Source: Candidatus Methylomirabilis sp. (lineage in GTDB: Bacteria > DYJV01). Taken from it: DNA of 41,122 nucleotides. The DNA lies in the NCBI GenBank assembly GCA_020722945.1, contig DYJV01000017.1, forward strand, positions 1 through 41,122. Direction: 5' to 3'. Made by a program: the position numbers and the translations under genes. The notes under the pieces were generated by a model. It searched no databases. It saw only the letters and a list, made by a program, of their open reading frames with translations, and was not told the origin of the DNA. This document shows, piece by piece, positions 15,801 through 38,834 of the stretch. Each line of letters opens with the position of its first letter. The stretch's first letter is position 1.

Positions 15801-15851
15801 ATTAAATCCCCTTATTGGCACAATAATACTATATCAACATTTTTTTAAAGA

Positions 15852-17044: not shown

Positions 17045-17097
17045 GATCCCCTCCATTGTTTTAATCTTTAGCCATAATTTTTATGACTAATAGTTTG

Positions 17098-20151: not shown

Positions 20152-22263
20152 TCAATTTTGGATAACTCTTGATAAAACTTTATCTTCAATCTCTTTTAGA
20201 TAAACAGTGTAACTTCCAAATTTATCAACTATCACTGAAAATTCAGGTGTAATAAAAGCCGTGGTATTGGTCTGCTCCAAGATAGCAGGACCTGATACTC
20301 TGTTCCCATATTTTAGTTGAAGAGAATCAAAAACATCTACCTCTTCAAATCTCTTTTTTGAAGGGATAAAGACATCTCTTCTTTTTTTGAAAGCTTTATC
20401 GGGAAGCTCCCCGTCATACTCCATAACAGGAAAATTAGGTTTGACTGTTTTCCCGATAACTTTTAATCTTAAATTTATAAGTTCGATAGGAGTCCGCTCA
20501 TTTTCGAGTGAGTAACCGAAAAGAGTGTTATGTGCAGGGTGAAATTTCTTTGCAATTAAATCCCAGTTACAATCGATTATATCTTTTTCAGGTATTTCGA
20601 CACTGACTTCATGATACTGTCTTGAATATCTTAAATCGAGTGAATATACAAACTCTATTTTGTTGGTATCTCTGATACCTTCGCTCTTTAATGTTTTTAT
20701 CCCTGTGCTCTTCATCTCTTCAAAATATTTTTTGAAAATTTTCTTATCAATATTTTCAAGATTAGAGATATAGCTCCTTACATAATCGTGTTCAAGGTCT
20801 GAAATGAGCATCCCTGCGGCACAGAAAATGGATGATTCCCTTGGTATAATAAGTATTGGTATGTCAAGCTCCATTGCTATCATACATGCATGATTGGGAC
20901 CTGCTCCACCAGCAACTATCATTGGGAGATCTCTTGGATCCACCCCTTCACTGACTGCGATCTCTCTGACTGCTGCTGCCATATTTACATTGATAATGTT
21001 ATACATACCTGCTGAAGCTTCGTAAAGTCCAAATTTGAGTGGTTTCGCTATTTTTTTTTCTATTGCTTTTGAAGCTTTATCTTTGTCAAGTTTCATCTTT
21101 CCACCTGCAAAGAAATCTGGGTCTAAATATCCGAGCACAATATCGGCATCTGTGCATGTAGGCTCTTCACCACCAAGTGAATAGCAGACAGGTCCAGGTT
21201 TGGAACCTGCACTTTGAGGTCCCATTCGTAAAAGACCACCCTCATCTATCCAACCGATGCTCCCACCGCCAGCACCGATAGTTACAACATTGAGCATTGG
21301 GAGTGCTGTTCGAAGTCTGTTGATATAACCACTTGTTGTAACAGTAGGTTTGCCATTTTTTACAACAGCAGTATCAAAACTTGTGCCACCCATATCTGTA
21401 GTTATAAAACTATCGTAACCTTGTGGTTTTACATAAATAGTGCCTGCTACTGGTCCACCAGCAGGGCCAGACAGTAGTGTGGATGCAGATTTTGATATTG
21501 CACTTTCAGGTGAAACTACTCCACCATTTGATGTCATTATCAGTAGAGTCCCTTTAAAATTCTCTTTTTCTAACCTCTTCATAAGTGATGTTAGGTATCT
21601 TTTTAAAATAGGTCCAACATAAGAGTTGAGAGATGTTGTGCTGACTCTATCGTAAAATCTGACAGATGGAAGAAGTTCAAAAGATACTGTTAGATAAATA
21701 TCCTCAAAATCTCTCTTTACAATTTTTGCTACTTCATTTTCATGGATTGGGTTTGCAAATGAATTCATAAAGCATATTGCAATTGCTTCAACTTTTTCTT
21801 TTTTTAGTTTATCTATTTGGGATTGAAGATTTGATTTGTCAAGTGGAGTTACGATTTCACCTACGGAGTTGATACGCTCTTTTACAGGAAGCCTGAGGTA
21901 TCTTTCTACAACAGGTTTTGCATTTTCATATCTGTTGTTATACTGCTCCTCCCTTACCCCTCTTCTCATCTCAAGTGCATCCCTGACCCCCTCTGTGGTA
22001 AGTAGTGCGGTTTTTGCACCATTGTAGGTAAGTATAGCATTTGTGGTGACAGTTGTCCCATGAACTATTGTTGAGACTTTTTGGAGGAAATCTCTTAATG
22101 ATAGCCCATGTGCATCAGCCATCTCTTTTAATCCTTTCATTGTTGCAATTGAAGGGTCATCTGGAGTTGATAAAACTTTATATATTTCAGTGGAGCCATC
22201 ATCAGATGTAAGTAGAAAATCTGTGAATGTTCCACCAACATCGATACCTATTTTGTAATTCAT
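20152..22263 (-). CDS. HyuA-family ATP-binding subunit of amide/lactam hydrolase (IaaC/IaaE-like)
   Basis: This is the ATP-using partner of the HyuB-type protein. The 703-residue chain starts with a hydantoinase A N-terminal ASKHA-fold phosphate motif, IGIDVGGTFTDFLL, and has a second, TDMGGTSFDTAVV, near residue 290, then GAGGGSIGWIDEGG and AGGAGPNHACMIA. The C-terminal domain of about 200 residues matches the hydantoinase A family. These motifs support phosphorylation of a lactam oxygen during ring opening, as in 5-oxoprolinase and caprolactamase. It follows the mutase genes and precedes HyuB, so mutase, hydrolase and ligase are co-expressed. Which of IaaC and IaaE corresponds to this subunit I cannot say. 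Confidence 0.82.
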   Translation of the reverse strand: MNYKIGIDVGGTFTDFLLTSDDGSTEIYKVLSTPDDPSIATMKGLKEMADAHGLSLRDFLQKVSTIVHGTTVTTNAILTYNGAKTALLTTEGVRDALEMRRGVREEQYNNRYENAKPVVERYLRLPVKERINSVGEIVTPLDKSNLQSQIDKLKKEKVEAIAICFMNSFANPIHENEVAKIVKRDFEDIYLTVSFELLPSVRFYDRVSTTSLNSYVGPILKRYLTSLMKRLEKENFKGTLLIMTSNGGVVSPESAISKSASTLLSGPAGGPVAGTIYVKPQGYDSFITTDMGGTSFDTAVVKNGKPTVTTSGYINRLRTALPMLNVVTIGAGGGSIGWIDEGGLLRMGPQSAGSKPGPVCYSLGGEEPTCTDADIVLGYLDPDFFAGGKMKLDKDKASKAIEKKIAKPLKFGLYEASAGMYNIINVNMAAAVREIAVSEGVDPRDLPMIVAGGAGPNHACMIAMELDIPILIIPRESSIFCAAGMLISDLEHDYVRSYISNLENIDKKIFKKYFEEMKSTGIKTLKSEGIRDTNKIEFVYSLDLRYSRQYHEVSVEIPEKDIIDCNWDLIAKKFHPAHNTLFGYSLENERTPIELINLRLKVIGKTVKPNFPVMEYDGELPDKAFKKRRDVFIPSKKRFEEVDVFDSLQLKYGNRVSGPAILEQTNTTAFITPEFSVIVDKFGSYTVYLKEIEDKVLSRVIQN

Positions 22264-22299: not shown

Positions 22300-23940
22300 T
22301 TAACCAAAAATATTAGGTTCTTCAAAAACTCCATATACCTCTCTAAACACATCTGCCATCTCTCCAACTGTGGCATAAGATTTACAGCATTCAACAAGTG
22401 AAGGCATAACATTTTGACCATTTAAAGCAGTTTTTTTAAGTGTATCAATAGAAGATTTTACTCTTCTGTTGTCTCTTGTTCTTTTTAATTTTTTTAACTC
22501 CTCTATCTTTTTTTTTGCAGATTCTTCGTCATATTCGTGGAGTTTTACCTCCTGTTTATTTTCATCCATAATGTATCTGTTTACACCAACTTTTATATAT
22601 TTGCCATCTTCAAGACCTTTTTGATAATCGTATGCTTGAAGTGCAATTTTCCTCTGAACAAACCCATCCTCAACAGCTTTAAGCATCCCACCATAATTAT
22701 CTATCTCTGCAATCTCTTTCTCTATAAGAGATTCCATCTCCTTTGTGATACTTTCAATAAAGTAGGACCCCGCAAGAGGATCCACAGTGTCTCTCAAGCC
22801 GACCTCGTCCATAAGCATCTGTAGAGTTCTTAGTGAGATTAGTGCAGATTCTTCAGTGGGGATAGTATAGGCTTCATCGTATGAGCATAAAGCTGTAGTC
22901 TGTGCTCCACCAAGTGCTGCTGCAAGACCGTAGTATGCACCTCTTACGATGTTGTTCATAGGTTGCTCTTTAGTTAGGCCTGAACCGCCACCACCAAATA
23001 GACCACGGAAGAAGAGAACTTTACTGTCTTTTTTACCTGCACCATATCTGTTTTTTAAATTCTTTGCCCATATCTTCCGTGCTGCTCTTAATTTTGCAAC
23101 TGTCTCCCAGATATTGCCGTAGATATTTATGTTAAACGAGAAACTTCCGACAAAATCATCAATATCAAGACCCCTCTTTAAAACCTCATCTATATAGGTA
23201 TTGGCAATCTGAATTGCGTAAGCTATCTCTTGTGCAGGGGTAGCACCAGATTCTCTAATATGGTAGCCGCATATACTCACAGGGTTACATTTGGGAAGCT
23301 CTTTGACAGAGTATTCGATGGTGTCTCCGATAAGTTTTACACCATGTCGGGGTGGGTAGATCCAAGCTCCTCTGCCGATTATCTCTTTTAAGATGTCGTT
23401 TTGAGGAGTTGCACTTATGACATTTTTTGAGTATCCATATCTCTCTGCAACTGCCTGATACATTGCAAGCATTATTGAGGCAACAGCATTTATTGTGAGT
23501 CCAGAACCTATTTTTTCAAGAGGTATATCTTTAAATGCTATTTCAAAATCGAGTAGAGTATCAACAGCCATTCCAACTCTTCCCACTTCACCTTCAGCTT
23601 CAGGAGAATCGGAATCGTATCCCATTTGAGTGGGTAGATCAAATGCAACATTTAAACCATTCTGTCCATTTGCTATTAATAATTTGAATCTTTCATTTGT
23701 CTGAGCAGGTGTCCCAAAACCTGAATATTGTCTCATTGTCCAACCTCTGCTCCTATAACCGAGAGGATGAATCCCTCTTGTAAAAGGGTAGTCCCCCGGG
23801 TCACTGAGGTCTTTATCGTAACTAAAATCTAATTTTGCAAGGTCGTCAGGGGTGTAAAGAGGTTTTACTTTAATACCTGAAAGATACTCAACTTCTACTA
23901 TCTTATCTTTTTTATCTTTTATATATTTTGCTACACCCAT
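22300..23940 (-). CDS. B12-dependent acyl-CoA mutase large subunit (IaaG/H-like, carboxylate-type)
   Basis: This catalytic TIM-barrel subunit performs radical carbon-skeleton rearrangement of a CoA ester. The 546-residue protein matches split methylmalonyl-CoA mutase large subunits. Tyr72 (in RQYSGF) and Arg190 (ten residues after Gln180 in PQNDILKE) align with Tyr89 and Arg207 of Propionibacterium methylmalonyl-CoA mutase, which bind the substrate carboxylate. Isobutyryl-CoA mutase has Phe and Gln there, and 2-hydroxyisobutyryl-CoA mutase has Ile plus an Asp where this protein has Ala99. His227 lies in the conserved GYH motif. The region FFRGLFGGGGSGLT replaces the usual SQTSGWSLT, suggesting a remodelled pocket. 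With its neighbours, (2-aminophenyl)succinyl-CoA to (2-aminobenzyl)malonyl-CoA is the best-fitting reaction; methylmalonyl-CoA mutase is the alternative. Confidence 0.82.
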   Translation of the reverse strand: MGVAKYIKDKKDKIVEVEYLSGIKVKPLYTPDDLAKLDFSYDKDLSDPGDYPFTRGIHPLGYRSRGWTMRQYSGFGTPAQTNERFKLLIANGQNGLNVAFDLPTQMGYDSDSPEAEGEVGRVGMAVDTLLDFEIAFKDIPLEKIGSGLTINAVASIMLAMYQAVAERYGYSKNVISATPQNDILKEIIGRGAWIYPPRHGVKLIGDTIEYSVKELPKCNPVSICGYHIRESGATPAQEIAYAIQIANTYIDEVLKRGLDIDDFVGSFSFNINIYGNIWETVAKLRAARKIWAKNLKNRYGAGKKDSKVLFFRGLFGGGGSGLTKEQPMNNIVRGAYYGLAAALGGAQTTALCSYDEAYTIPTEESALISLRTLQMLMDEVGLRDTVDPLAGSYFIESITKEMESLIEKEIAEIDNYGGMLKAVEDGFVQRKIALQAYDYQKGLEDGKYIKVGVNRYIMDENKQEVKLHEYDEESAKKKIEELKKLKRTRDNRRVKSSIDTLKKTALNGQNVMPSLVECCKSYATVGEMADVFREVYGVFEEPNIFG

Positions 23941-23959: not shown

Positions 23960-24361
23960 TTATAACTTTGAATTGAGAGTATTATTTAAGAAGGATAAAG
24001 TTTTTTTTAGAGGGGTTCCACCCGGAAAAACGCCTTTAACTCCAATTTTTTTCAGTAATTCTATATCTTTATCAGGAATTACTCCACCTACAAAAACAAC
24101 TATGTCATCTGCTTTATTCTCCCTTAATTTCTCGATAATTTTGGTAGAGTAGTATAGGTGAGCACCTGATAATATTGAGAGACCTAAGGCATCAACATCT
24201 TCTTGTATTGCTGTAATAACTATTTGGTCAATAGATTTGTGGAGACCTGAATATATAACCTCAAATCCTGATTCTCTCAAAGCATGGGCAACTATCTTTG
24301 CTCCTTTATCGTGACCATCAAGACCCGGCTTTGCAATTAAGATTCTAAAATGTTTATTCAT
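23960..24361 (-). CDS. B12-binding small subunit of acyl-CoA mutase
   Basis: This 133-residue protein is a stand-alone cobalamin-binding Rossmann domain that supplies adenosylcobalamin to the large subunit. The base-off signature LDGHDKG (His17 as the lower axial ligand), the nucleotide-loop motif LSILSGAH, and VGGVIP followed by GVFPGGTP are all present. The size matches HcmB, IcmB and other split-mutase small subunits. It precedes the large subunit by 19 bp in transcription order. No MeaB/ArgK-type G-protein chaperone gene is next to it, although most split mutases need one. Confidence 0.92.
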   Translation of the reverse strand: MNKHFRILIAKPGLDGHDKGAKIVAHALRESGFEVIYSGLHKSIDQIVITAIQEDVDALGLSILSGAHLYYSTKIIEKLRENKADDIVVFVGGVIPDKDIELLKKIGVKGVFPGGTPLKKTLSFLNNTLNSKL

Positions 24362-24387: not shown

Positions 24388-24816
24388 TTAAGATTTACTC
24401 TTTTTAATATTAAACTCACCATCGCATATTTCAGTGAGCACCCCACACATTTCATCTGGATAATTTATGAATGAATACCTGTTGCCAAAAAGTTCTCTCG
24501 GTTTTTCATCAATCAGTTTATAACCTTTATCTTTTAGCTCTTTGATCTTAGATGGGACATTATCTACACCGTAAGATATTAAGAAAACACCTTCACCCCT
24601 TTTATTTATAAACTTTGCAACTTCACCATCAGGGGTAGTTGATTCCATGAGCTCTATTGCAACTTCTCCAAGGTAGTATCTTGCAACTTTTATCTTTTCA
24701 CTTTCAGCTATGTATTCGGAGTGAAGCTCCAATCCAAGCACATCTTGATAAATTTTCTTCCCTTTTTCGAGATCTTTGACTGCTATACAGATATGATCTA
24801 TTTTTTTTGTTTTCAT
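24388..24816 (-). CDS. Methylmalonyl-CoA epimerase-like VOC protein, metal site altered
   Basis: The VOC-fold protein (142 residues) resembles methylmalonyl-CoA epimerase, with the two repeated betaalphabetabetabeta units (IDHICIAVKDLEKGKKIYQDVLG and the C-terminal half). His8 and Glu129 (in CGVLTEIC) match two epimerase metal or acid-base positions. The usual GLHHIA motif, which carries a metal-binding His, is replaced by GVFLIS (Phe78 and Leu79), so the standard Co/Mn site is incomplete. It sits directly upstream of the mutase small subunit, where an epimerase would set the stereochemistry at C2 of an arylsuccinyl- or arylmalonyl-CoA. Activity as an epimerase is therefore plausible from context but not from residues. 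Confidence 0.72.
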   Translation of the reverse strand: MKTKKIDHICIAVKDLEKGKKIYQDVLGLELHSEYIAESEKIKVARYYLGEVAIELMESTTPDGEVAKFINKRGEGVFLISYGVDNVPSKIKELKDKGYKLIDEKPRELFGNRYSFINYPDEMCGVLTEICDGEFNIKKSKS

Positions 24817-24831
24817 GACCCCTCTTAATTT

Positions 24832-27105
24832 TTATCTATTTTTTTGAGTAATTTCTTTTAAAACTTTGTCAGGTGTTATGGGAAAATCTTTTATCCATAC
24901 ACCTATTGCATCAAAAACAGCGTTACCTACTGCCTGAAAACCGTTCATTGAACCGAAAAGTCCTGCTTCCTTTGCTCCAAAAGGACCTTTAGGATCATTG
25001 GTAATTACTACATCAGCATAAATTTTGTCAGGGACATCGAGAGATGTAGGTATTTTGTATTCGAGGAAATCGGGATTTAACATCTGACCATTGTCCCATA
25101 AATGTTCTTCAAGAATTGTAGATACACCACCAGAAGCAACAGAACCTTCATACTGCCCCTCAACTCCCTTTCTATTGATAGGGTATCCACAATCTTGGAA
25201 ACCTGTTGCCTCGACAATATTGACATTGCCGGTATATCGGTCAATTTTCACCTCCATTATATTTGCACCAAAACTGAAAGTTGTTGCCTGTTGACCAATA
25301 GGATTTTTGACCCACTCTCTGTCGTTGGATACTTCAGGCATATAATGCCCCCTCCCCATAATATGTCTATCTTCTATCAACCCTTTCCTCACAACAGCAT
25401 GAAGTGGGAGTTTAAGGGCTGGATCCTTTTTTGAAAAAACAACTTTATCACTTATATCAAGCTCTTTAGTGCTGCATTTGAGGATCTCTGATGCAAGTTT
25501 TACTATCTGTTTTCTTGCATCTTCACACGCTTTTTTGACAGCATTCCCACCTACAAGGACAGCTGCTTGAGAGTATGCTCCAACATCAAGAGTTGTAACT
25601 TCTGTATCAGCAGCAACAATATGTATCTCATCTGTGGGGACTCCAAGCACTTCTGATGCTATTTGAACCATAGCATGGTAGTTCCCTTGTCCATTATCAA
25701 CAACACCTGTAATTATAGTAGGGTAGCCATCTTCATTAAACTTTACAAAACAGCTTGAACCACCCCTTATCCCCATAGGGAATCCACACATCATACCATT
25801 TGCACCCATTCCAATGCCTTGGTATGCTGGGAGTTTACCCCTTTTGGAACCCCATTTGGATTTTTTTGAAGCTCTTTTTATGGCATCAGATAAACCACAG
25901 CTAAAAATTTTTGACTTAGTTGCCTGATATTCACCTTTTTTAAGTGCGTTTCTCAATCTTATCTCAACAGGATCGATATTGAGCTTATTTGCTATCATAT
26001 CAAGCTGCATACCTAATCCTCCCAAAAATGCTCTTCCATGGCAACGATACATACCTCGTATCGGTTTGTTGGTGTAAACCCGATAACTATTGAGTCTGAC
26101 ATTTGGAAGTCTGTATGTCTCCTCCCATACAAGAAATGGAACAGATGCAGCTATTGGTCCTGTGCTTGAATATCCCCCACCATCCATGATAACTTTTATA
26201 TCTTGAGCTATTATCTCTCCATCTTTACTGACTCCAGTCTTTACATTCATAACCATATCGTGGACTTGTCTTGTGCAAGTCATGCTCTCTTCCCTTGAAT
26301 ACACTATCTTTACAGCTCTTTTTGATTTTATAGAAAGGAGAGATGTTATAAAATCGAGAGGGAATATATCTGATCTCCCCCCAAAAGCTCCACCAATTGC
26401 TGGGCGACGGACAATAACTTTATTGAGCGGCATATGAAGAAGATTAGATAGAGCTTTTGCTTTTGTATGTGGAGATGCATTAGGTATCCACAATTCAAGT
26501 ATTCCATCACTTCTGTAATTAGCAACTACGGCATAATTTTCAAGCATACCGTAAGTTTCTCCATTTGAGGTGAATCTCTCCTCACTGACAAGATAAGATT
26601 CAGCAAAACCTTTTTCCACATTGCCAACTTCGATCTTAACATGAATATTTATGTTGTTTTTGAAATCGTTGTGAATTAATGGTGCTCCATCTTTGATAGA
26701 CTCCTCTGCGTCAAATATTGCAGGTAGTGGCTGATAGTCAACTTTTATAAGATTAATGGCTTCAATAGCTGTCTCCTCATCAATAGCAGCAACAGCGGCA
26801 ACTTCCTCCCCTATAAATCTGACCTTATCTGATGCGATTAACTGGTGATCTCGTGTATATTTGAATACTCCCCACTTCTCCCCAAATGTATCATCTCTTG
26901 TAACAACAGCTTTCACTCCGGGTAATTTTTCTGCTTTTGATGTGTCTATATTTTTTATGATAGCGTGAGGATAAGGGGAGTGTAATACTTTGCCTACAAG
27001 CATTTTAGGTATTTTGATGTCAGCAGTGTATAGAGCCTCTCCTGTTGCCTTTTGTGGTGTATCTATACGAGGTATACTTTTCCCGATTATTTTGTATTTT
27101 GGCAT
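24832..27105 (-). CDS. Molybdenum enzyme large subunit, 4-hydroxybenzoyl-CoA reductase alpha-like
   Basis: This Mo-binding subunit of the xanthine oxidase superfamily is 757 residues, the size of HcrA. Pterin motifs are present: IGGAFGGRSD, IRGMYRCHGRAFLGGLG, GVVDNGQGNYHAMVQ and GPFGAKEAGLFG. The final motif is unusual: where hydroxylases, including the paralogue at 12050-14425, have the essential Glu (GIGEIG), this protein has Leu716 (EAGLFG). Its partner FAD subunit carries the [4Fe-4S] insert diagnostic for 4-hydroxybenzoyl-CoA reductase, so a low-potential reductive reaction or an unusual oxidation is possible. The gene follows the small subunit by 24 bp with GGAGG before the ATG. The substrate is unknown; an aryl-CoA ester or indole derivative is likely from context. 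Confidence 0.8.
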   Translation of the reverse strand: MPKYKIIGKSIPRIDTPQKATGEALYTADIKIPKMLVGKVLHSPYPHAIIKNIDTSKAEKLPGVKAVVTRDDTFGEKWGVFKYTRDHQLIASDKVRFIGEEVAAVAAIDEETAIEAINLIKVDYQPLPAIFDAEESIKDGAPLIHNDFKNNINIHVKIEVGNVEKGFAESYLVSEERFTSNGETYGMLENYAVVANYRSDGILELWIPNASPHTKAKALSNLLHMPLNKVIVRRPAIGGAFGGRSDIFPLDFITSLLSIKSKRAVKIVYSREESMTCTRQVHDMVMNVKTGVSKDGEIIAQDIKVIMDGGGYSSTGPIAASVPFLVWEETYRLPNVRLNSYRVYTNKPIRGMYRCHGRAFLGGLGMQLDMIANKLNIDPVEIRLRNALKKGEYQATKSKIFSCGLSDAIKRASKKSKWGSKRGKLPAYQGIGMGANGMMCGFPMGIRGGSSCFVKFNEDGYPTIITGVVDNGQGNYHAMVQIASEVLGVPTDEIHIVAADTEVTTLDVGAYSQAAVLVGGNAVKKACEDARKQIVKLASEILKCSTKELDISDKVVFSKKDPALKLPLHAVVRKGLIEDRHIMGRGHYMPEVSNDREWVKNPIGQQATTFSFGANIMEVKIDRYTGNVNIVEATGFQDCGYPINRKGVEGQYEGSVASGGVSTILEEHLWDNGQMLNPDFLEYKIPTSLDVPDKIYADVVITNDPKGPFGAKEAGLFGSMNGFQAVGNAVFDAIGVWIKDFPITPDKVLKEITQKNR

Positions 27106-27129: not shown

Positions 27130-27600
27130 TTAGGACAATTTTGAAGCTTCTTCAATTGCGTCAGTTATCTTGATGTAGCCAGTGCACCTGCATATATTCC
27201 CTGAAATAGCTTCTCTTATCTCATTGCGGGATAGTTTACTTCTTTTCTGTTCTATAAGTGAAAGCCCTGTAAGTATCATTCCTGATGAGCAGAATCCACA
27301 TTGAATTGCATGATTTCTGATAAATGATTCTTGTATTGGGTGAAGTTTACCATCAACGGCAACACCCTCTATAGTTCTTATCTTTTTATGCTCTACCTCA
27401 ACAGCAAGTATGAGGCATGCTCTCATAGGCAGACCGTCAATGAGGACAGTGCATGCTCCACAACTTCCATCGTCACAACCCTCCTTTGCACCAGTAAGAT
27501 CAAGCCTATTTCTTAAGACATCAAGCAACGTTTCGTTGGGGAAAATCTCTAATTCATAAATATCGTTGTTGATATTTAGATATATCTTCCTCTTATCCAT
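27130..27600 (-). CDS. Molybdenum enzyme [2Fe-2S] small subunit, HcrC-like
   Basis: The 156-residue protein carries two [2Fe-2S] clusters. First-cluster ligands are Cys42, Cys47, Cys50 and Cys62 (GCDDGSCGAC). Second-cluster motifs are CGFCSSGM (Cys101, Cys104) and CRCTGY (Cys137, Cys139). The size is close to HcrC of 4-hydroxybenzoyl-CoA reductase. I start at ATG 27600 (MDKRKIYLN); the longer in-frame extension to 27687 lies wholly inside the upstream FAD-subunit gene. The ATG overlaps the FAD-subunit stop codon region (ATGGATAA), so the two are translationally coupled. Confidence 0.92.
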   Translation of the reverse strand: MDKRKIYLNINNDIYELEIFPNETLLDVLRNRLDLTGAKEGCDDGSCGACTVLIDGLPMRACLILAVEVEHKKIRTIEGVAVDGKLHPIQESFIRNHAIQCGFCSSGMILTGLSLIEQKRSKLSRNEIREAISGNICRCTGYIKITDAIEEASKLS

Positions 27601-28561
27601 TTGTAACTCCAAAATTATCGATGATTTTTTGAAATAAAGTTGTAGATAGTAATTTTCTATGCTCTGGAGTAGAGGGCATATTGGCAATAGGTTTTGGTTG
27701 TTTCTCTATGATTGAGGTGATTTTACCTAATCTATCTTTTGAAAAATTGGTTATATCTATTGTAATAGGTTGTGAATCAACTGCATTTAAGACTATCCTC
27801 ATATTTGAAGGATTATCCTTGCTATAACCTACGGCAACTCCTGAAAGTGGGTAGTCTATAGAATTTCTCAATCTAAATTTTTCGTAAAATGATATTTTGG
27901 TTGAAATATTTTTGAGGATCAGTTGTGTAACTACTTCGTTTGTTTTTAGGATATTAGGTTTTGTGCCATCTCCTGTATAAAAATCTTTAAGTGGAATTGT
28001 TCTAAAAGTTTCTCCATTAAATATTTCGAGCTCAGCATCAACTGAAATTAGCATTGGTGGGAGATCAGCACTAAATACCGCAAAGCATTTTTTGGAACCG
28101 GGCAAGGCATTGCATACATTGCCACCCAGCTTGTAGCAAGGTTTACGGCTGCTTCTCCAATTTGCAGATTGGTTGTAGTATAGACATCTTGTATCAAGAG
28201 AGATATTCCCACCGATAGTTGCTCTGTTTTGTAAAGGTGGAGCGGCAATAAGTTTCCCTGCTATTGCAAGAGATGGGAATACTTTTTTTATAATCGGAGA
28301 GTTAATTATTTCAGAAATAGTGGTCAAAGAGCCTATCAAAAGGGTATCACTCTCTTTTTTATAATTGATAAATCTCATCTCATCAATTTTTGAAAGAGAT
28401 ACAAGGAGATCTAAATTTGGATATAAACTTTTTTTTATGTTGGGAATAATCTGTGTGCCGCCTGCAGAGTATAAATATCTACTACTGTTTTTTAGAAGAA
28501 AGAATGAAAGCTCTGAGATAGTGAGAGGAATGACTACATCAAACTTTGATGGTAATCCCAT
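27593..28561 (-). CDS. FAD subunit with [4Fe-4S] insert, 4-hydroxybenzoyl-CoA reductase beta-like
   Basis: The medium subunit has the FAD motifs SAGGTQIIPNIKK and RATIGGNISLDTRC. After the second motif it carries a cysteine-rich insert with Cys126, Cys142, Cys150 and Cys159. The spacing is identical to Cys122, 138, 146 and 155, which bind the extra [4Fe-4S] cluster in Thauera aromatica 4-hydroxybenzoyl-CoA reductase. The flanking residues CLYYNQS and NWR are also HcrB-like. In that enzyme the cluster lets low-potential ferredoxin electrons drive reductive dehydroxylation. It is the first gene of the leftward operon. ATG 28561 has AGGGGG upstream and is preferred over an in-frame TTG five codons earlier. 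The length, 322 residues, matches HcrB. Confidence 0.85.
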   Translation of the reverse strand: MGLPSKFDVVIPLTISELSFFLLKNSSRYLYSAGGTQIIPNIKKSLYPNLDLLVSLSKIDEMRFINYKKESDTLLIGSLTTISEIINSPIIKKVFPSLAIAGKLIAAPPLQNRATIGGNISLDTRCLYYNQSANWRSSRKPCYKLGGNVCNALPGSKKCFAVFSADLPPMLISVDAELEIFNGETFRTIPLKDFYTGDGTKPNILKTNEVVTQLILKNISTKISFYEKFRLRNSIDYPLSGVAVGYSKDNPSNMRIVLNAVDSQPITIDITNFSKDRLGKITSIIEKQPKPIANMPSTPEHRKLLSTTLFQKIIDNFGVTNG

Positions 28562-28581
28562 AATGCCCCCTGCCAAAGAAA

Positions 28582-28593
28582 TATGTATACATA
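28582..28593. promoter_or_regulatory. Palindromic operator TATGTATACATA, leftward side
   Basis: Perfect 12-bp palindrome between the leftward promoter and the first gene of the leftward operon, at about +13 to +24. It is identical to the palindrome at 28744-28755. The TGTATACA core resembles sites of FCD-type GntR regulators, and a GntR/FCD gene lies at the end of the rightward operon. Confidence 0.7.
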
Positions 28594-28612
28594 AAATATT
28601 ATTTTAATTGGC

Positions 28613-28639
28613 ATTATAATATAAAAATTTTTTTGTCAA
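28613..28639 (-). promoter_or_regulatory. Predicted promoter of the leftward catabolic operon
   Basis: On the minus strand, TTGACA (28639-28634) and TATAAT (28618-28613) are both perfect consensus boxes, separated by 15 bp, which is shorter than optimal. The start codon at 28561 lies about 50 bp downstream, with the palindromic operator in between. Confidence 0.6.
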
Positions 28640-28716
28640 TAAAATTTTTATAAAAATATTATAGCTGTAACATACTATATTTTTTGTGTTTTTTTGATAT
28701 TATTGAAAAATTTTTC

Positions 28717-28745
28717 TTGACAACTAACATTGTTTTAAGTATGTA
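28717..28745 (+). promoter_or_regulatory. Predicted promoter of the rightward catabolic operon
   Basis: TTGACA at 28717-28722 and TATGTA at 28740-28745 are 17 bp apart. The operator palindrome at 28744-28755 overlaps the -10 box and the expected start point, a layout suited to repression. The gene starts at 28779. Confidence 0.55.
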
Positions 28746-28755
28746 TGTATACATA
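28744..28755. promoter_or_regulatory. Palindromic operator TATGTATACATA, rightward side
   Basis: Second exact copy of the 12-bp palindrome, 162 bp from the first and overlapping the rightward -10 box. An additional ATGT half-repeat precedes it (28741-28744). It is a probable site for the GntR/FCD regulator at 34482-35135. Confidence 0.7.
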
Positions 28756-28778
28756 AAAATGCAAAAATAGAGGTTTTA

Positions 28779-29975
28779 ATGGAGACTTCCCATTTATTTT
28801 CAAAGGTTACAGTTCTTGCATTGGAGCAGGCTATAGTGGTTCCTTACTTTACCTACAAGATGGTTATAGATGGAGCAAATGTTATAAGATTGGAACACCC
28901 TATAAATCACGACCCAAATAGATTAGTTGGTGATAGAGTGATTGACGAAGATAAGATGAATAGCTATTTTCTCACTATTAACAGTGGCAAAAAGTGTGTT
29001 ACCCTAAACCTTAAATCTAAAAAGGGGCAGGCTCTTTTATACGATATGATCAAATCTCTCGATGTAGATATTTTTATAACCAACCAATTACCTAAAAATT
29101 ACGATACTCTTGGTATAAGTTATGACAAGATCTCATCAGTAAAAGAAGATATTATCTGGGTTGGTGTTACAGGTTTTGGCAAAGATAGCAATGAGGGAGC
29201 ATACGACCCAATACTTCAAGCAAGAGCTGCTCTTATGGATCTCACAGGTGAAGCGTCTGGTGACCCTCAGGTTATAGGTATTCCACTACCCGATATGGGA
29301 AGCAGTGAGCAAATTTATGGACTTGTGATGAAAGCTCTTTTTAAAAAAGCTGTTACCTCCAAAGGTAGCAGGATAGATTTTTCAATGTTCAGAAGTAGTG
29401 TGAGTTGGCATGCTATTAATATCCCGATGGTCTCTTCATTCAACAAAAAGATTACAAGAAGGGGTAATACTCACGAATTTTTTGCACCTGTATCTGTCTA
29501 CAAAACAAAAGATTCCTACATTTATATTGCTATTGGAAACAATCGGCAATGGGAAGATTTTTCCAAACTTCAAACATTCTCCTCTCTTGATATTCCAGAT
29601 TATAAGCTTAATGAAGGTAGGATAAAAGATGTTACTAATCTTAACAACAAAATCAACAAAATCACCTCTTCACTTTACACTGATGAGCTTCTGCAAATGT
29701 TAAAAGAGATAACTGTCCCTTCATCTAAGATAAACTCTCTTGAAGATCTATTGTCAGACCCCCATTTGGATAATAAATTCCTAAAAAGTATCGATAAAGA
29801 TAAAAATTTAGAGATCAAATTATCTCCACCTGCTTACGATACAGATTTTATAAATGATTCAAGGACTTTATCTTTTCCGCCAAGATTAGGTGAGCATAAT
29901 ATCGAGATATACAGAGATATCCTCAAAATATCAGATGACCAACTTTTACAATTAAAAAATGAAGGGGTGATATGA
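28779..29975 (+). CDS. iaaL: Class III (family III) CoA-transferase, IaaL-like
   Basis: Family III CoA-transferases move CoA between carboxylic acids through an aspartyl-CoA anhydride. The 398-residue protein has the fold's N-terminal LALEQAIVVPYFTYKMVIDGANVIRLEHP pattern and the catalytic Asp172 in IGIPLPDMGSSEQIYG. Length is typical. IaaL of Aromatoleum is a phenylsuccinyl-CoA transferase of this class in auxin degradation; by gene context this enzyme would activate (2-aminophenyl)succinate. Substrate assignment is inference, and a general aryl-acid CoA-transferase is the alternative. It is the first gene of the rightward operon, with AGAGG before the ATG and a strong regulated promoter upstream. 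Confidence 0.72.
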   Translation: METSHLFSKVTVLALEQAIVVPYFTYKMVIDGANVIRLEHPINHDPNRLVGDRVIDEDKMNSYFLTINSGKKCVTLNLKSKKGQALLYDMIKSLDVDIFITNQLPKNYDTLGISYDKISSVKEDIIWVGVTGFGKDSNEGAYDPILQARAALMDLTGEASGDPQVIGIPLPDMGSSEQIYGLVMKALFKKAVTSKGSRIDFSMFRSSVSWHAINIPMVSSFNKKITRRGNTHEFFAPVSVYKTKDSYIYIAIGNNRQWEDFSKLQTFSSLDIPDYKLNEGRIKDVTNLNNKINKITSSLYTDELLQMLKEITVPSSKINSLEDLLSDPHLDNKFLKSIDKDKNLEIKLSPPAYDTDFINDSRTLSFPPRLGEHNIEIYRDILKISDDQLLQLKNEGVI

Positions 29976-29996
29976 CACCCTCTTTTGAGGATTAAG

Positions 29997-30872
29997 ATGG
30001 AGAATATATTACAATTTATAATTTCAGGGATTACAACAGGGAGTATATATGCTTTGATAGCATTAGGATTCTCTGTTATTAACAATTCAACCGGCATTGT
30101 CAATATACTTCAATGTGAGTTTATAACTTATGGCGGGATGCTCACAGTTACATTTTATCTCTTCTCAAAATTTCCACTTCCGTTGGCAATAATATTTTCA
30201 GTTATAGTTGTTGCAATTTTTGCAGGTCTTTTTGAACGTTTAATAATAAGAAATTCAAAATCAAAAGATATTATGCTTCTGATATTCATAACCATTGGAG
30301 CTTCGATATTCTTTAAAGGGCTTGCTCTTCTTATTTGGGGTTCAGACCCTTTTACTATACCATCTTTCTCTGGTGAGCAGATTATAAAATTTTTGGGGGC
30401 TGTGATTATTCCGCAAAATTTATGGATATTAGGTATTACTTTTGTTACCGTAACTCTTTTACATCTTTTCTTTAAAAATACAATTACAGGAAAAGCTATG
30501 AGAGCTGTCTCTATCAATAAAAAAGCAGCAGAGATTGTTGGGATAAATATCAATAAGATGATATTCTTGTCATTTGTAATAAGTGGATTTCTTGGTTCAA
30601 TTGCAGGCATAATAATAGCACCTATCACTACCACTTCCTACGATATAGGATTTATGCTTGGGCTAAAAGGTTTTGCTGCTGCTATACTTGGTGGTTATGG
30701 TAGTATGGCAGGTTCTGTTGTCGGTGGTTTGCTTCTTGGAATCCTTGAAAGCATAGGTGCAGGTGAAATTTCCTCAACTTACAAAGATGTAATTGCTTTT
30801 GTTGTTCTTATCCTCATCCTTTTTATTAAACCAACAGGTATTTTAGGCAGCAGATATGTTGACAAAGTTTAA
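29997..30872 (+). CDS. livH: HAAT-family ABC transporter permease LivH
   Basis: LivH-type inner-membrane permease of a branched-chain amino acid-like importer. The 291-residue protein is strongly hydrophobic, with about eight membrane segments and the family motifs TTGSIYALIALGFSVINNSTGIVN near the start and LKGFAAAILGGYGSMAGSVVGGLLLGILE near the cytoplasmic coupling region. ATG 29997 has TGAGGAT upstream; the earlier in-frame TTG overlaps that ribosome binding site. It belongs to the rightward operon and probably works with the binding protein encoded at 15905-17044. Confidence 0.9.
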   Translation: MENILQFIISGITTGSIYALIALGFSVINNSTGIVNILQCEFITYGGMLTVTFYLFSKFPLPLAIIFSVIVVAIFAGLFERLIIRNSKSKDIMLLIFITIGASIFFKGLALLIWGSDPFTIPSFSGEQIIKFLGAVIIPQNLWILGITFVTVTLLHLFFKNTITGKAMRAVSINKKAAEIVGININKMIFLSFVISGFLGSIAGIIIAPITTTSYDIGFMLGLKGFAAAILGGYGSMAGSVVGGLLLGILESIGAGEISSTYKDVIAFVVLILILFIKPTGILGSRYVDKV

Positions 30873-31794
30873 AGATAATTTTCTTTACCAACTAATTTTT
30901 ACTATTATCGTGTCCTTTATCCTCTATATCTGTATAAAGAGTAACTATCTAATATTGGTAATGAATATTATAGGTTTAAATGCAATTATAGTCATAGGTA
31001 TCAATCTCCTCGTAGGTTATGCAGGTCAAATTTCACTTGGACATGCAGCTTTTTACGGTATAGGGGCATATAGTTCAACTATTCTTACCACAACTTACAG
31101 TTTTAATCCATGGCTTGCTCTCATACTTGCCGCAATTATCACTGCTGTTTCTGCTTTTATTATAGGGAAACCATCTCTCAAATTAAAGGGGCACTATCTT
31201 GTTATGGCAACACTTGGTTTTAATATGATTGTCTCTATTATTCTTGTTCAATGGGAAGAGTTTACAGGTGGACCTTCAGGGATACCGGGAATACCGTATC
31301 TTAAAATAGGTGATTTTGTGTTTAATTCAGATAAAAAGTTTTTTATACTTATTTTGATATTTTTAATCTTATCATTAATTACTGCTCACAATCTTGTTAA
31401 TTCAAGAGTTGGACGGGGGATACGCTCTTTACATAGTAGTGAAATTGCAGCCGCATCATTGGGTATAGATGTAAGTGAGTATAAAATAAAAATTTTTGTT
31501 TTGAGTGCTGTTCTTGCAAGTATCTCAGGGAGTTTGTATGCTCACTACTTTACTTTTATAAGTCCCAAATCTTTTGATATAATTTTTTCAATAAAAATTA
31601 TTATAATGTCTATCTTTGGTGGGATATCCACTATCTGGGGAGCATTGATAGGTAGTGCAGTATTGACAATACTTGGAGAAGTGCTAACAATTATTGAAGA
31701 TTTCTCCACTATTACATTAGGGTTGATACTGATATTTACACTTATGTTTATTCCTGAAGGTGTTGTAGGTTACATAAAAAAAAGGATAAAATAG
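30856..31794 (+). CDS. livM: HAAT-family ABC transporter permease LivM
   Basis: Second permease of the Liv-type importer, 312 residues, multi-spanning. Family motifs include NLLVGYAGQISLGHAAFYGIGAY and the coupling segment FGGISTIWGALIGSAVLTIL. The start overlaps livH by 17 bp, indicating coupled translation. The length lacks any fused ATPase domain, as is normal. Confidence 0.9.
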   Translation: MLTKFKDNFLYQLIFTIIVSFILYICIKSNYLILVMNIIGLNAIIVIGINLLVGYAGQISLGHAAFYGIGAYSSTILTTTYSFNPWLALILAAIITAVSAFIIGKPSLKLKGHYLVMATLGFNMIVSIILVQWEEFTGGPSGIPGIPYLKIGDFVFNSDKKFFILILIFLILSLITAHNLVNSRVGRGIRSLHSSEIAAASLGIDVSEYKIKIFVLSAVLASISGSLYAHYFTFISPKSFDIIFSIKIIIMSIFGGISTIWGALIGSAVLTILGEVLTIIEDFSTITLGLILIFTLMFIPEGVVGYIKKRIK

Positions 31795-31818
31795 TATTTA
31801 AAATAAAGGATTATTAGA

Positions 31819-32595
31819 TTGAAGGTTTTAGAGGTAAAAAATATCTACAAAAGTTTTGGTGGGCTGATGGCTTTATCAAATATAACATTTGATATTGATG
31901 ATGCTTCAATTACATCTATAATTGGTCCAAATGGAGCAGGCAAATCAACGCTTATCAATGTAATATCTGGTATATATAAGCCTGATAAAGGTTCAGTATT
32001 TGTTGGAGGTAGAGAGATTACAGGTGTCCCATTACATCGGATAAATAGGTATGGAATAAAGAGAACATTTCAGAATATTCAGATATTTTCAAATCTTACA
32101 GTCATCGAAAATATAATGCTTGGTTTTCATTCTGTTACAAAATATGAATTTATAAATTGTATCTTAAACCTCAAATATGTAAAAGATCAGGAGGAGTTTA
32201 TTAAGATTGAGAGCAGAAATATACTCAAGCAGTTCAAGATGGAGCATTTTGCTGATAAGTATGCGTCGGAGCTACCTTATGGGCAGCAAAAGAAGCTTGA
32301 AATTGCAAGGACAATTGCTGCTAATCCAGATATTATCTTTCTTGATGAACCTGCAGCAGGTCTCAATATTTCAGAAACAAAGGAGATAAGTGAAATTATC
32401 ATAAGATTAAAGATGAATGGCAAATCTATTATATTGATAGAGCACGATATGAATATGGTTATGGATATATCTGATAAGATAGTTGTTCTTAATTTTGGAG
32501 AAAAGATAGCAGAAGGTTCATCTTACGATATACAAAATAATATTGATGTTATCTCCGCATATCTTGGAAAATCGTTTAACAATAAAATGGAGTAA
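31819..32595 (+). CDS. livG: HAAT-family ABC transporter ATPase LivG
   Basis: First ATP-binding subunit of the importer, 258 residues. Walker A is GPNGAGKST, Walker B is IIFLDEP, and the signature region is SELPYGQQKKLEIARTIA, the LPYGQQ form typical of LivG. The LivG/BraF-type loop around RTFQNIQIFSNLTVIENIMLG is present. Translation starts at TTG with AAAGGA upstream, suggesting modest expression. Confidence 0.92.
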   Translation: MKVLEVKNIYKSFGGLMALSNITFDIDDASITSIIGPNGAGKSTLINVISGIYKPDKGSVFVGGREITGVPLHRINRYGIKRTFQNIQIFSNLTVIENIMLGFHSVTKYEFINCILNLKYVKDQEEFIKIESRNILKQFKMEHFADKYASELPYGQQKKLEIARTIAANPDIIFLDEPAAGLNISETKEISEIIIRLKMNGKSIILIEHDMNMVMDISDKIVVLNFGEKIAEGSSYDIQNNIDVISAYLGKSFNNKME

Positions 32596-32598
32596 ACT

Positions 32599-33348
32599 TT
32601 GTTAGATGTAACCAATGTTTCCACATATTATGGGCAGATAGAAGCTGTAAAGGATGTATCGATTTCTATCAAAAGTGGTGAAATAATCTCAATAATAGGG
32701 AACAATGGAGCAGGGAAAACTACACTTATAAATACAATTTCAGGGTTAATAAAACCTAAAAAAGGGAGTATCACTTTTAATGGTGTTGAGATAACAACTT
32801 CTACTGTCAATAAGATAGTAAATTTGGGGATAGTCCAAGTTCCTGAGGGGAGAGAAGTATTTTCATCCCTGACTGTAAAAGAGAATCTTGAGTTGGGAGC
32901 TTATTCAAGATACAAAAAGGAAAGCAAGGAAGATATATCTGAATCTCTTGAAGATATTTATATGTTATTCCCTATTTTAAAGATGCGGGAGAAGCAGGTT
33001 GCAGGGACATTGAGTGGGGGTGAGCAGCAGATGCTTGCAATTGGCAGAGGTTTGATGTCAAAGCCTAAACTTATGCTCCTTGATGAGCCATCTTTGGGTC
33101 TTGCTCCACTTGTGGTTGAAGAAGTCTTTGAAACAGTAAAAAAGCTTAATAAAAGTGGGACTACTTTTATAATAGTTGAGCAGAATGCTTTTACTGCTCT
33201 TAAATATTCAGAGAGAGCTTATATTTTTGAATTAGGTAAAGTTGTTCTTCAGGGGAATTCAAGGGATCTTCTCAATGATCCAAAGATTGAGGAGTCATTT
33301 CTCGGTAAAAAAGCTATCAAAATTAAATCTGGAGGTTACGATGCCTGA
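32599..33348 (+). CDS. livF: HAAT-family ABC transporter ATPase LivF
   Basis: Second ATP-binding subunit, 249 residues. Walker A is GNNGAGKTT, the signature is GTLSGGEQQMLAIGRGLM, and Walker B is LMLLDEPSLGL. The LivF-type motif VPEGREVFSSLTVKENLELGA is present. The start is TTG, three bases after livG, with GGAG upstream. Its end overlaps the start of the acyl-CoA dehydrogenase gene by 8 bp. Confidence 0.92.
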   Translation: MLDVTNVSTYYGQIEAVKDVSISIKSGEIISIIGNNGAGKTTLINTISGLIKPKKGSITFNGVEITTSTVNKIVNLGIVQVPEGREVFSSLTVKENLELGAYSRYKKESKEDISESLEDIYMLFPILKMREKQVAGTLSGGEQQMLAIGRGLMSKPKLMLLDEPSLGLAPLVVEEVFETVKKLNKSGTTFIIVEQNAFTALKYSERAYIFELGKVVLQGNSRDLLNDPKIEESFLGKKAIKIKSGGYDA

Positions 33349-34474
33349 TGAATACAAGCTATTTAGAGAATCTGTAAGAAGATTCGTTGATAATGAGATA
33401 AAACCTTATGCTCAAGAGTTTGAAGATCGAAAAGAGTTTCCGATGCCACTTTTCAAAAAAATTGCAAAGATGGGTTATTTCGGTATCAGGTATCCTGAAG
33501 AGGTTGGAGGTAGCTCCGGAACAGCAACTATGTTTAATATTTTATGTGAAGAGCTTGCGAGGGGTTATATGAGTATTGCAGCGATAACAGCGATGCAGTG
33601 CTTGATGGGGACAAATTTTATCTTTAAATATGGGACAAAAAATCATCATGATAACTATCTTAAACCTGCTATTAGAGGTGAAAAGATAGCAACATTTGCA
33701 TTGACAGAGCCTGATGCAGGTAGTGATCTTTCGAATATAAAGAGTATTGCTGAGCGAAAGGGTGATAGATTCATCATAAATGGTAGTAAAACATGGATTA
33801 CTAATTCATCTGTTGCTGATTTTTTTACGGTTTTGTGTCTGACTGACAGAGAGAAGAGGCTAAAAGGTGCAAATTTTTTCTTAATTCCAAAAGAGGTAAA
33901 AGGGCTTACTGTTTCAAAAAAATTTGATAAAATTGGGACAAAATCTGCTGAAAATTCTGAAATATTTCTATCTAATGTTGAAGTTCCTATCGAAAATATG
34001 CTTGGGCAAGAGGGTAAAGGGATGAGTAACCTCCTCCAAATCCTTTCAGAGATAAGGACAATGACAGCTGCACTCAGTCTTGGATTGCTCCGAGCTGCTT
34101 TTGAAGAGAGCAGGAGATACTCCAAACAGAGAGTTCAGTTTGGTAAACCGATAGGTAGTTTTCAGTTGATCCAATCCAAATTGGCAAATATGGCTACAGA
34201 TATAGAAGTTTCAAAATGTTTCCTTTATAAAGTTTCAAAGATGATTGATAATGGTGAGAAGTGTGAGAAAGAAGCCTCAATGGCTAAATATTTTATATCT
34301 GAAGCTGCATGTAGAGCAGTAGACCAAGCTACGAGAATTTTTGGAAGTTATGGATTTTCATCTGAATATCCGGTTGGTAGATTTTTTACAGATTCAAGAT
34401 TTCTCCTCTTTGGCGGAGGGACATCAGAGATATTACAGAATAATATTGCAAGGGAAATATTGGAGGATAATTAA
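33341..34474 (+). CDS. iaaF: Acyl-CoA dehydrogenase lacking the usual catalytic Glu; IaaF-like (benzylmalonyl-CoA dehydrogenase)
   Basis: The 377-residue flavoprotein has all acyl-CoA dehydrogenase landmarks: FALTEPDAGSDL, INGSKTWITN, RVQFGKPIGSFQLIQ and RIFGSYGFSSEYPVGRFFTDSR. At the canonical base position the usual YEGTSEI is replaced by GGGTSEI (Gly359). The alternative base position of isovaleryl-CoA dehydrogenase, just before Arg239, is Ile238. IaaF of Aromatoleum oxidises and decarboxylates benzylmalonyl-CoA to cinnamoyl-CoA, with loss of CO2 replacing proton removal, so no base would be needed. ATG 33341, with GGAGG before it, overlaps the livF end; a longer upstream reading lies inside livF and is not real. 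Glu237 nearby could serve as an alternative base, so function remains inferred. Confidence 0.75.
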   Translation: MPDEYKLFRESVRRFVDNEIKPYAQEFEDRKEFPMPLFKKIAKMGYFGIRYPEEVGGSSGTATMFNILCEELARGYMSIAAITAMQCLMGTNFIFKYGTKNHHDNYLKPAIRGEKIATFALTEPDAGSDLSNIKSIAERKGDRFIINGSKTWITNSSVADFFTVLCLTDREKRLKGANFFLIPKEVKGLTVSKKFDKIGTKSAENSEIFLSNVEVPIENMLGQEGKGMSNLLQILSEIRTMTAALSLGLLRAAFEESRRYSKQRVQFGKPIGSFQLIQSKLANMATDIEVSKCFLYKVSKMIDNGEKCEKEASMAKYFISEAACRAVDQATRIFGSYGFSSEYPVGRFFTDSRFLLFGGGTSEILQNNIAREILEDN

Positions 34475-34481
34475 TTTATAG

Positions 34482-35135
34482 ATGACAAAAAAAGAGCAGA
34501 TATATAAAGATTTAAAGAAAAAATTGCTTGAATCAAAGATAAAGAGTTACGATGTCTTAAAGGAGGAGGAGCTTGCCGCAAAATATAAAATTAGCCGAAC
34601 TCCTATTAGGGAAGCACTCCAGCTTCTTGATAAAGAGGGTTTTCTAAAAAAGGTAAAGAAAGTAGGGTATATGCTCTGTCCACTTTCAAAAAAAGACCTT
34701 AACGAGATAATTGGGATAAGAAGTATTCTTGAAAGTTATGCAGCATATCTTGCCACTATAAACTATGAAAAGAGTGTTATTGATAAATTAAATAAAATAA
34801 ATGAAAAAGCGTATCAAACCATTCTCAATAATGATTTTGAGAGTTTTTTTAAGATCAATTCAGACTTTCACGAAACTATATACAATGCAAGTGGGAATCA
34901 GAGGTTGATACTCCTTATAAAAAATTTAAATGAAAATTTCATCAGGTATAGAGTGATGCTGCTCAAAGTAAAAAAGATGCCTGAGATTTCATACAACGAT
35001 CATCTTGAGATGATAGATGCGATGGAGAGCAGAAATGCTGATAAAGTTGAGAAACTTGTAAAAGAGCATATTATAAAGGGTGGGAAGATCCTTATAGATC
35101 ATATCAATAGTAGTGATATTGAGATATTTGGTTAG
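34482..35135 (+). CDS. GntR-family transcriptional regulator, FCD subgroup
   Basis: The 217-residue protein has an N-terminal winged helix-turn-helix (residues about 5-70, ELAAKYKISRTPIREALQLLDKEGFLKK) and an all-helical FCD effector domain (about 75-210), in which metal-ligand-type residues can be seen (the Asp/His motif DFHETIYNASGN and DHLEMIDAMESR). FCD regulators usually bind carboxylic acids and act as repressors. The gene is the last in the rightward operon, seven bases after iaaF-like. The twin TATGTATACATA sites at 28582 and 28744 match its expected operator form, so autoregulation and control of both operons are likely. The known Aromatoleum iaa regulator is, as I recall, of another family, so the control would be independently evolved. 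Confidence 0.88.
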   Translation: MTKKEQIYKDLKKKLLESKIKSYDVLKEEELAAKYKISRTPIREALQLLDKEGFLKKVKKVGYMLCPLSKKDLNEIIGIRSILESYAAYLATINYEKSVIDKLNKINEKAYQTILNNDFESFFKINSDFHETIYNASGNQRLILLIKNLNENFIRYRVMLLKVKKMPEISYNDHLEMIDAMESRNADKVEKLVKEHIIKGGKILIDHINSSDIEIFG

Positions 35136-35161: not shown

Positions 35162-36007
35162 TTAAGATTTTATGCTCTTCTCAATTATAAGGTAGTTTCC
35201 TGCTGGAATCCCATAAATTTTTTTGATAAATAGCTCACACCTATCGAGATAATGTTTACCCTTGTTAAAAATTTTTATTAACACTTTTTGTGGTGCTCCT
35301 ACCATAAAAGAGTAGCAAATTGGTATATTATCTACTATTTTATAGTTACTCCCAAATGCTTTGTTTAAAATTTTATTCATATCACCCAGAGTATAGAATT
35401 TGTAAAATTTTAGTTTGTTCTTAAATGCAAGGTCGCTCCTAACGTTTGAACCCCACTTTGGAAGAGAGAGACCGAAAAAAAAGTAGCTAAAAAAAGCAAG
35501 GCTGTATCTTCTTGGAACTCCCAATATTAGTTTACCATTTGGTTTGATCACTCTAAATATCTCTTTGAGTGTTTTTTCAGGTTTTTCAAGATGCTCCAAA
35601 ACTCCGTAGATTATCACTGTATCAAGGTGGTTATCTTTAAAGGGGAGAGTGTTCATATCACCATTTATAGGGAGAAATTGAGATGAGTATCCATTGATAT
35701 CTGCTCTATGAGATGCTGTTTGTAGCATTGCATTTGAAAAATCTAAACCTACCATCTCTGATACACCATTTTTTATGTAAACTTGGACAATTTGACCATT
35801 GCCGCAGCCAAATTCAGCGATCTTTGAATTTTTTGCAATATGTTTATTTACAATGTATTCAACAGGTTTCTCAACGCTTTTTTTAAAAACCCATCCTTCA
35901 AAATCAGAGTTTGCCCTCCCTGAAAGGTCAACTATTCCGTAGTATTTCGAAATCTTTTCATGTGTATCTTTTATAACTTTTGAATAATTATCTAACTTCC
36001 CATTCAT
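35162..36007 (-). CDS. Class I SAM-dependent methyltransferase
   Basis: The 281-residue protein has SAM motif I IAEFGCGNGQ (residues about 63-72), the acidic motif II residue in VGLDFSN and the DTVIIYGVLEHLEKPEKTL motif of the Methyltransf_11 group. It is the last gene of the glycan-export operon and overlaps the Wzt gene by 20 bp. The acceptor is not identifiable from sequence; sugar or lipid O-methylation is suggested by the neighbourhood. Confidence 0.75.
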   Translation of the reverse strand: MNGKLDNYSKVIKDTHEKISKYYGIVDLSGRANSDFEGWVFKKSVEKPVEYIVNKHIAKNSKIAEFGCGNGQIVQVYIKNGVSEMVGLDFSNAMLQTASHRADINGYSSQFLPINGDMNTLPFKDNHLDTVIIYGVLEHLEKPEKTLKEIFRVIKPNGKLILGVPRRYSLAFFSYFFFGLSLPKWGSNVRSDLAFKNKLKFYKFYTLGDMNKILNKAFGSNYKIVDNIPICYSFMVGAPQKVLIKIFNKGKHYLDRCELFIKKIYGIPAGNYLIIEKSIKS

Positions 36008-38829: not shown

Positions 38830-38834
38830 AAAAA

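Follow-up and report, generated by a model that had tools for sequence, protein, structure and literature searches.

We identified a molybdo-iron-sulfur flavoenzyme of the xanthine oxidase family, resembling 4-hydroxybenzoyl-CoA reductase (HBCR), as a member of the anaerobic indoleacetate (iaa) pathway in a 41,122-nucleotide stretch of DNA from Candidatus Methylomirabilis sp. (contig DYJV01000017.1; hereafter, the window). As to its reaction, we see about an even chance that the complex works at low potential and forms benzoyl-CoA by reductive deamination of 2-aminobenzoyl-CoA. A wider proposal, which we make more tentatively and at somewhat less than an even chance, is that the clade of its large subunit is the missing 2-aminobenzoyl-CoA reductase, a xanthine oxidase family molybdoenzyme that would cleave an aromatic C-N bond reductively and, in many different sulfate reducers and related anaerobes, connect the degradation of indoleacetate, and possibly of anthranilate, with the benzoyl-CoA pathway. 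In the mechanism that we propose, the complex would be part of the iaa regulon and would most likely run reductively. Low-potential electrons, presumably from ferredoxin, would enter at the [4Fe-4S] cluster and the FAD subunit and would then pass through two [2Fe-2S] clusters to the molybdenum site, where the ring amino group of 2-aminobenzoyl-CoA would be removed to give benzoyl-CoA and ammonia; the benzoyl-CoA could then be used by the benzoyl-CoA pathway of the cell. No ferredoxin gene was found in the gene cluster of the window, which counts against this proposal.

The three genes of the complex lie on the minus strand. The HcrB-like FAD subunit, which has a four-cysteine insert of the [4Fe-4S] type, is encoded by an open reading frame of 322 amino acids (27593-28561) with an ATG at 28561, preceded by the Shine-Dalgarno-like stretch GGCAGGGGG. 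The gene for the HcrC-like small subunit (27130-27600; two predicted [2Fe-2S] clusters, Fer2_2) shares 8 bases with the FAD gene, and the HcrA-like molybdopterin subunit is encoded at 24832-27105; the three-subunit plan of HBCR (molybdenum, FAD, and two [2Fe-2S] clusters) is therefore present. The FAD subunit contains four cysteines in all, C126, C142, C150, and C159, with 15, 7, and 8 intervening residues. The original prediction that this is the spacing of Thauera HcrB was borne out by a gap-free phmmer alignment of the four-cysteine region with Thauera aromatica HcrB (1rm6_B; E 8e-37). The 15/7/8 spacing arose in 0 of 200,000 random placements of four cysteines and was absent from every non-FAD open reading frame of more than 200 amino acids in the two main locus sets, so it is not due to chance. 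It was kept exactly in 49 of 51 FAD subunits whose neighboring large subunit belongs to the clade of the window protein, the last gap being longer by one residue in the remaining 2. An AlphaFold2 model of the FAD subunit (mean pLDDT 91.7, with the insert well predicted) had its closest fold in 1rm6_B (Z 40.0, 316 aligned residues, rmsd 1.9), followed by 1ffv_C, a CO dehydrogenase subunit (Z 31.7). The insert is therefore of the HcrB type, as had been predicted. The HcrA-like subunit likewise matched 1rm6_A best (Z 46.0) and 1t3q_B next (Z 42.6). The sequence alignment, together with the full-length fold match, indicates that the cysteines of the FAD subunit would superpose on the cluster cysteines of HcrB, and these similarities suggest that the subunit binds a [4Fe-4S] cluster.

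Such a cluster had also been claimed to be diagnostic of a reductive, low-potential molybdoenzyme, and this claim did not hold. When the bacterial genome collection was searched, most of the FAD subunits closest to that of the window had the same spacing; they come from many phyla and include acidobacteria and alphaproteobacterial MAGs. A related cysteine-rich insert with other spacing occurs in the aldehyde oxidase FAD subunits 5y6q_B and PaoB (5g5g_B), and in PaoB it holds a cluster. Aldehyde oxidases are oxidative enzymes. We therefore regard the insert as the marker of a large subfamily and rejected the view that it signifies a reductive enzyme; as read from the sequence, it does not prove reductive use of the complex.

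The genes around the complex are those of the anaerobic iaa pathway. On the minus strand, from 28561 to 12050, the HcrB-, HcrC-, and HcrA-like genes are followed by genes for a VOC protein resembling methylmalonyl-CoA epimerase (24388-24816) and for the small (IaaH-like; 23960-24361) and large (IaaG-like; 22300-23940) subunits of a B12-binding mutase, which scored above the cut-offs of TIGR00640 and TIGR00641, respectively. Next are the alpha (IaaC-like; 20152-22263; NF050156, 668 bits) and beta (IaaE-like; 18419-20137; NF050157, 417 bits) subunits of a hydantoinase/caprolactamase-like enzyme, a PaaK-like aryl-CoA ligase (IaaB-like; 17098-18390; TIGR02155/NF041878), a Liv-type solute-binding protein recognized from its translation (15905-17056), and a second molybdoenzyme. 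The latter consists of an FAD subunit without the cysteine insert (14937-15821), whose translation has GGNICNASPAADT at that position, a [2Fe-2S] subunit also read from its translation (14428-14925), and a molybdenum subunit (12050-14425) that is a probable indoleacetate or indoleacetyl-CoA hydroxylase. Divergently, on the plus strand from 28779, are a family III CoA-transferase (IaaL-like; 28779-29975; PF02515), the permeases and ATPases of a Liv-type ABC transporter (LivHMGF; 29985-33348), an IaaF-like acyl-CoA dehydrogenase (33341-34474), and a GntR-family regulator, assigned from its translation (34482-35135). The dehydrogenase has GGG in place of YEG (LFGGGTSE), and this GGG motif is the defining feature of IaaF (PMC8360864). 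The CoA-transferase, the mutase pair, the hydantoinase-like pair, and the aryl-CoA ligase are thus all present in one cluster, and the HcrB-like gene stands at the head of the operon, as originally predicted. Beyond the GntR gene, from 35162 to 40761, the window contains unrelated methyltransferases, a radical SAM protein, and a polysaccharide-type ABC exporter.

Benzylmalonyl-CoA is reported to be converted by a methylmalonyl-CoA epimerase (PMC8360864); by this analogy, and from its neighborhood in clade loci, the VOC protein is a probable (aminobenzyl)malonyl-CoA epimerase. Of 61 clade loci, 32 have a gene of this type in the vicinity of the HcrABC-like genes. We considered whether it might be part of the complex, because it adjoins HcrA even where no mutase is nearby; membership in the same pathway is the simpler explanation. 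Methylmalonyl-CoA epimerases typically have an HHIAF motif. At that position, a conserved histidine is missing from the window protein and from the homologues aligned with it, so the metal site or the reaction may differ.

The divergent intergenic region (28562-28778) contains a perfect TTGACA-N-TATAAT promoter directed toward hcrB (28613-28639, minus strand) and two ATGTATACAT palindromes (28583-28592 and 28745-28754), one near each of the divergent genes, that are the sole copies in the window. In loci L020, L035, and L182, the palindrome is again found between these two genes, and it is probably the operator of the GntR regulator encoded at 34482-35135. Taken together, the predicted promoter and palindromes suggest that the complex is co-regulated with the indoleacetate pathway.

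We surveyed 395 Desulfobacterota genomes, many of them incomplete MAGs, using the IaaG mutase large subunit as the marker of the iaa pathway. The clade of the window's large subunit was carried by 57 genomes, the mutase by 76, the second molybdoenzyme by 75, and BamA by 105. The mutase was present in 53 of the 57 clade carriers compared to 23 of 338 non-carriers (Fisher p 2e-42, with related genomes counted as independent), and the clade was a regular companion of the mutase (53 of 76 IaaG-positive genomes). Relatives of the second molybdoenzyme were found in 70 of the 76; both molybdoenzymes occurred in 50, the HcrABC-like enzyme alone in 3, the second enzyme alone in 20, and neither in 3. 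These counts include at least one false negative, as G542 was scored clade-absent and does carry the clade; G348, also scored clade-absent, has HcrB, HcrC, and the epimerase at a contig end. Among BamA-positive genomes with neither the mutase nor the second enzyme, the clade was found in 1 of 39. Likewise, iaa core genes adjoined 26 of 61 clade loci compared to 1 of 74 other HcrA-family loci. These data indicate that the enzyme belongs to indoleacetate degradation and not to aromatic degradation at large, and they strongly support its membership in the iaa pathway. Since 50 genomes carry both molybdoenzymes, the HcrABC-like enzyme is additional to the likely hydroxylase rather than a replacement, in agreement with the original prediction that the complex points to an added reaction; the possibility that it is a stand-in for the indoleacetate hydroxylase was rejected as unlikely.

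In a tree of 151 large subunits, the window protein fell within a 62-member clade (support 100) consisting mainly of Desulfobacterota. The different gene contexts (iaa genes, the epimerase-like gene, or saccharopine-dehydrogenase-like and class III aminotransferase genes) were interspersed within the clade, which speaks for one function throughout. The phylum of the window was represented by 2 genomes in the set examined, and in the other, the sister genome (G001), the cluster is likewise present, split over two contigs (L020 and L144), with a large subunit 80% identical to that of the window. The arrangement was also conserved in Desulfobacterota loci L181, L182, and L216. Large subunits 72-74% identical to the window's were found in five Desulfobacterota genomes (G316, G417, G459, G556, and G439), which branch as sister to the lineage of the window; this suggests that the cluster was transferred between phyla. 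A plasmid search gave weak matches only. The window's genome encodes a third xanthine oxidase family enzyme on its own small contig (G000:C19:75-2336; L153). Elsewhere in the family, HcrABC-like enzymes with the same cysteine spacing at the alphaproteobacterial MAG loci L041-L070 are sister to Thauera HcrA.

The published anaerobic indoleacetate pathway stops at 2-aminobenzoyl-CoA (PMC9613470). Activity of a 2-aminobenzoyl-CoA reductase has been reported in denitrifiers, and Azoarcus evansii is reported to convert anthranilate to benzoyl-CoA anaerobically by means of a ligase and a 2-aminobenzoyl-CoA reductase (PMC4539516). In Desulfatiglans anilini, which is said to carry an iaa operon (PMC8360864), genes annotated as HBCR are suspected of acting on 4-aminobenzoyl-CoA and were induced on aniline and 4-aminobenzoate (PMC7500099). 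As far as we found, the literature searched names no gene for the reduction of 2-aminobenzoyl-CoA. The window genome (G000) encodes the benzoyl-CoA pathway: BamA and BamQ both scored above their cut-offs, a hydratase resembling BamR is present, and a BamB-like protein of the AOR (aldehyde:ferredoxin-oxidoreductase) family is encoded beside HdrA/FlpD-like genes. Given the end point of the pathway, the activities reported for Azoarcus and Desulfatiglans, and the benzoyl-CoA pathway in the genome, deamination of 2-aminobenzoyl-CoA is the most economical reading. The original prediction had implied a dehydroxylation; removal of the amino group from the compound at which the published pathway ends (PMC9613470) would fit best.

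Three observations count against deamination. Approximately 18-20 of the 76 IaaG-positive genomes have the second enzyme and lack the clade, with BamA present in 19 of 20, so iaa genomes of this kind would have to reach benzoyl-CoA in some other way. The sister genome, which is 92% complete, showed neither BamA nor a BamB-like AOR protein. Finally, the saccharopine-dehydrogenase-like and aminotransferase neighbors seen at 20 of 61 clade loci are not needed by the proposed reaction.

These neighbors bear on the alternative that survives best, which we still consider rather unlikely: that the substrate of the complex is a different amino-aryl intermediate of the iaa pathway, as in a reductive deamination of 2-aminocinnamoyl-CoA, or that the complex partially reduces the ring of 2-aminobenzoyl-CoA to an enamine or imine from which other enzymes remove the nitrogen. 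The tight link to the iaa pathway would fit such a role. Further amine or imine chemistry is suggested by the saccharopine-dehydrogenase-like and class III (glutamate-1-semialdehyde-aminomutase-like) aminotransferase genes, which stand beside the HcrABC-like genes at those 20 loci and accompany them repeatedly in Desulfobacterota (L203 11228-12373 and L227 12294-13556), and the dehydrogenase-like gene was found in 29 of 48 carriers compared to 1 of 16 non-carriers with IaaG and none of 14 others. However, this gene was not found in the window genome, its sister, or their closest Desulfobacterota relatives and so is not obligatory. HBCR-type chemistry, moreover, fits ring-conjugated thioesters and is established for them, as with benzoyl-CoA derivatives, which argues against this alternative.

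It is improbable that the complex is instead an oxidative indole-ring hydroxylase acting at C2 of indoleacetate or indoleacetyl-CoA, with a [4Fe-4S] cluster that serves only electron transfer, as in PaoABC-type aldehyde oxidases. Members of the xanthine oxidase family are mostly oxidative enzymes, cysteine-rich inserts do occur in aldehyde oxidases, and in the iaa pathway the pyrrole ring has to be hydroxylated once, as Ebenau-Jehle et al. reportedly described in 2012. However, the second molybdoenzyme, nearly constant in IaaG-positive genomes (70 of 76) and encoded after the aryl-CoA ligase gene in several loci, fits the core hydroxylase, and the joint presence of the two enzymes in 50 genomes shows that they are not alternatives.

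We considered it very unlikely that the complex is an ordinary HBCR, present in the operon by chance or serving tyrosine or phenol degradation, even though HBCR is the closest solved relative of both the FAD and the large subunit. All three subunits missed the HBCR equivalog cut-offs of NCBIfam by approximately 40-50%: 203.7 bits against 404.55 for the FAD subunit (TIGR03195), 158.6 against 257.8 for the small subunit (TIGR03193), and 607.8 against 994.55 for the large subunit (TIGR03194). The large subunit was not a member of the Thauera HcrA clade; the two clades are separate, each with a support of 100, and 30 columns are fixed differently between them. In addition, the window clade tracks the iaa genes and not the benzoyl-CoA pathway at large. 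Plain HBCR was therefore rejected, and the dehydroxylation implied by the original prediction was not supported. By the two features tested, cut-offs and clade, the complex is not HBCR, but it probably works like HBCR. Least probable of all is that it widens the substrate range of the pathway by dehydroxylating the ring of a hydroxylated derivative of indoleacetate or anthranilate, such as 5-hydroxyindoleacetate. This would explain why the complex is missing from some iaa genomes, and dehydroxylation is known for both HBCR and the urolithin C dehydroxylase Ucdh (PMC12771579). Against it, in the aminobenzoyl-CoA derived from such a compound a 5-hydroxyl would be in the meta position relative to the thioester, an arrangement expected to be unfavorable for HBCR chemistry, and the window contains no gene that would suggest a substrate of this type.

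The conversion of aminobenzoyl-CoA to benzoyl-CoA in anaerobes has been described before, with no named gene in the literature searched. The clade described here offers a concrete candidate gene set that differs from HBCR and that was found in over 50 genomes, almost all of them of indoleacetate degraders. Should reductive deamination of 2-aminobenzoyl-CoA be confirmed, reductive aromatic deamination would be added to the chemistry of the xanthine oxidase family, and the anaerobic auxin pathway would be complete as far as benzoyl-CoA. Even with a different reaction, the operon would still mark a widespread step that is absent from the published pathway.

Among known systems, HcrABC of Thauera aromatica (PDB 1rm6/1sb3) shares with the window complex the three-subunit plan and an identical four-cysteine spacing, and it is the best sequence and fold match for the FAD and molybdenum subunits. 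It differs in that the large subunit of the window is 32% identical, falls in a separate clade with 30 fixed substitutions, and is linked to indoleacetate genes, and in that the window subunits score approximately half to 60% of the equivalog cut-offs. The PaoABC-type aldehyde oxidases (5g5g and 5y6q) have a cysteine-rich insert at the same place in the FAD subunit; however, they are oxidative, their cysteine spacing is one that the window subunit does not have, and their matches were weaker (E 2e-9 and 1e-20, compared to 8e-37 for HcrB). The iaa pathway of Aromatoleum has in common with the window the ligase, the hydantoinase-like pair, the CoA-transferase, the B12 mutase pair, and the GGG acyl-CoA dehydrogenase (PMC8360864). 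The HcrABC-like complex and the epimerase-like gene of the window operon may set it apart from the Aromatoleum locus, iaaABCDEFGHIJKLMPQR (PMC9613470). The enzyme suspected of reducing 4-aminobenzoyl-CoA in Desulfatiglans anilini (ani and hcr clusters), compared by its description, is annotated as HBCR and likewise proposed to deaminate an aminobenzoyl-CoA reductively (PMC7500099), but it belongs to an aniline cluster, and its substrate has the amino group in the para rather than the ortho position.
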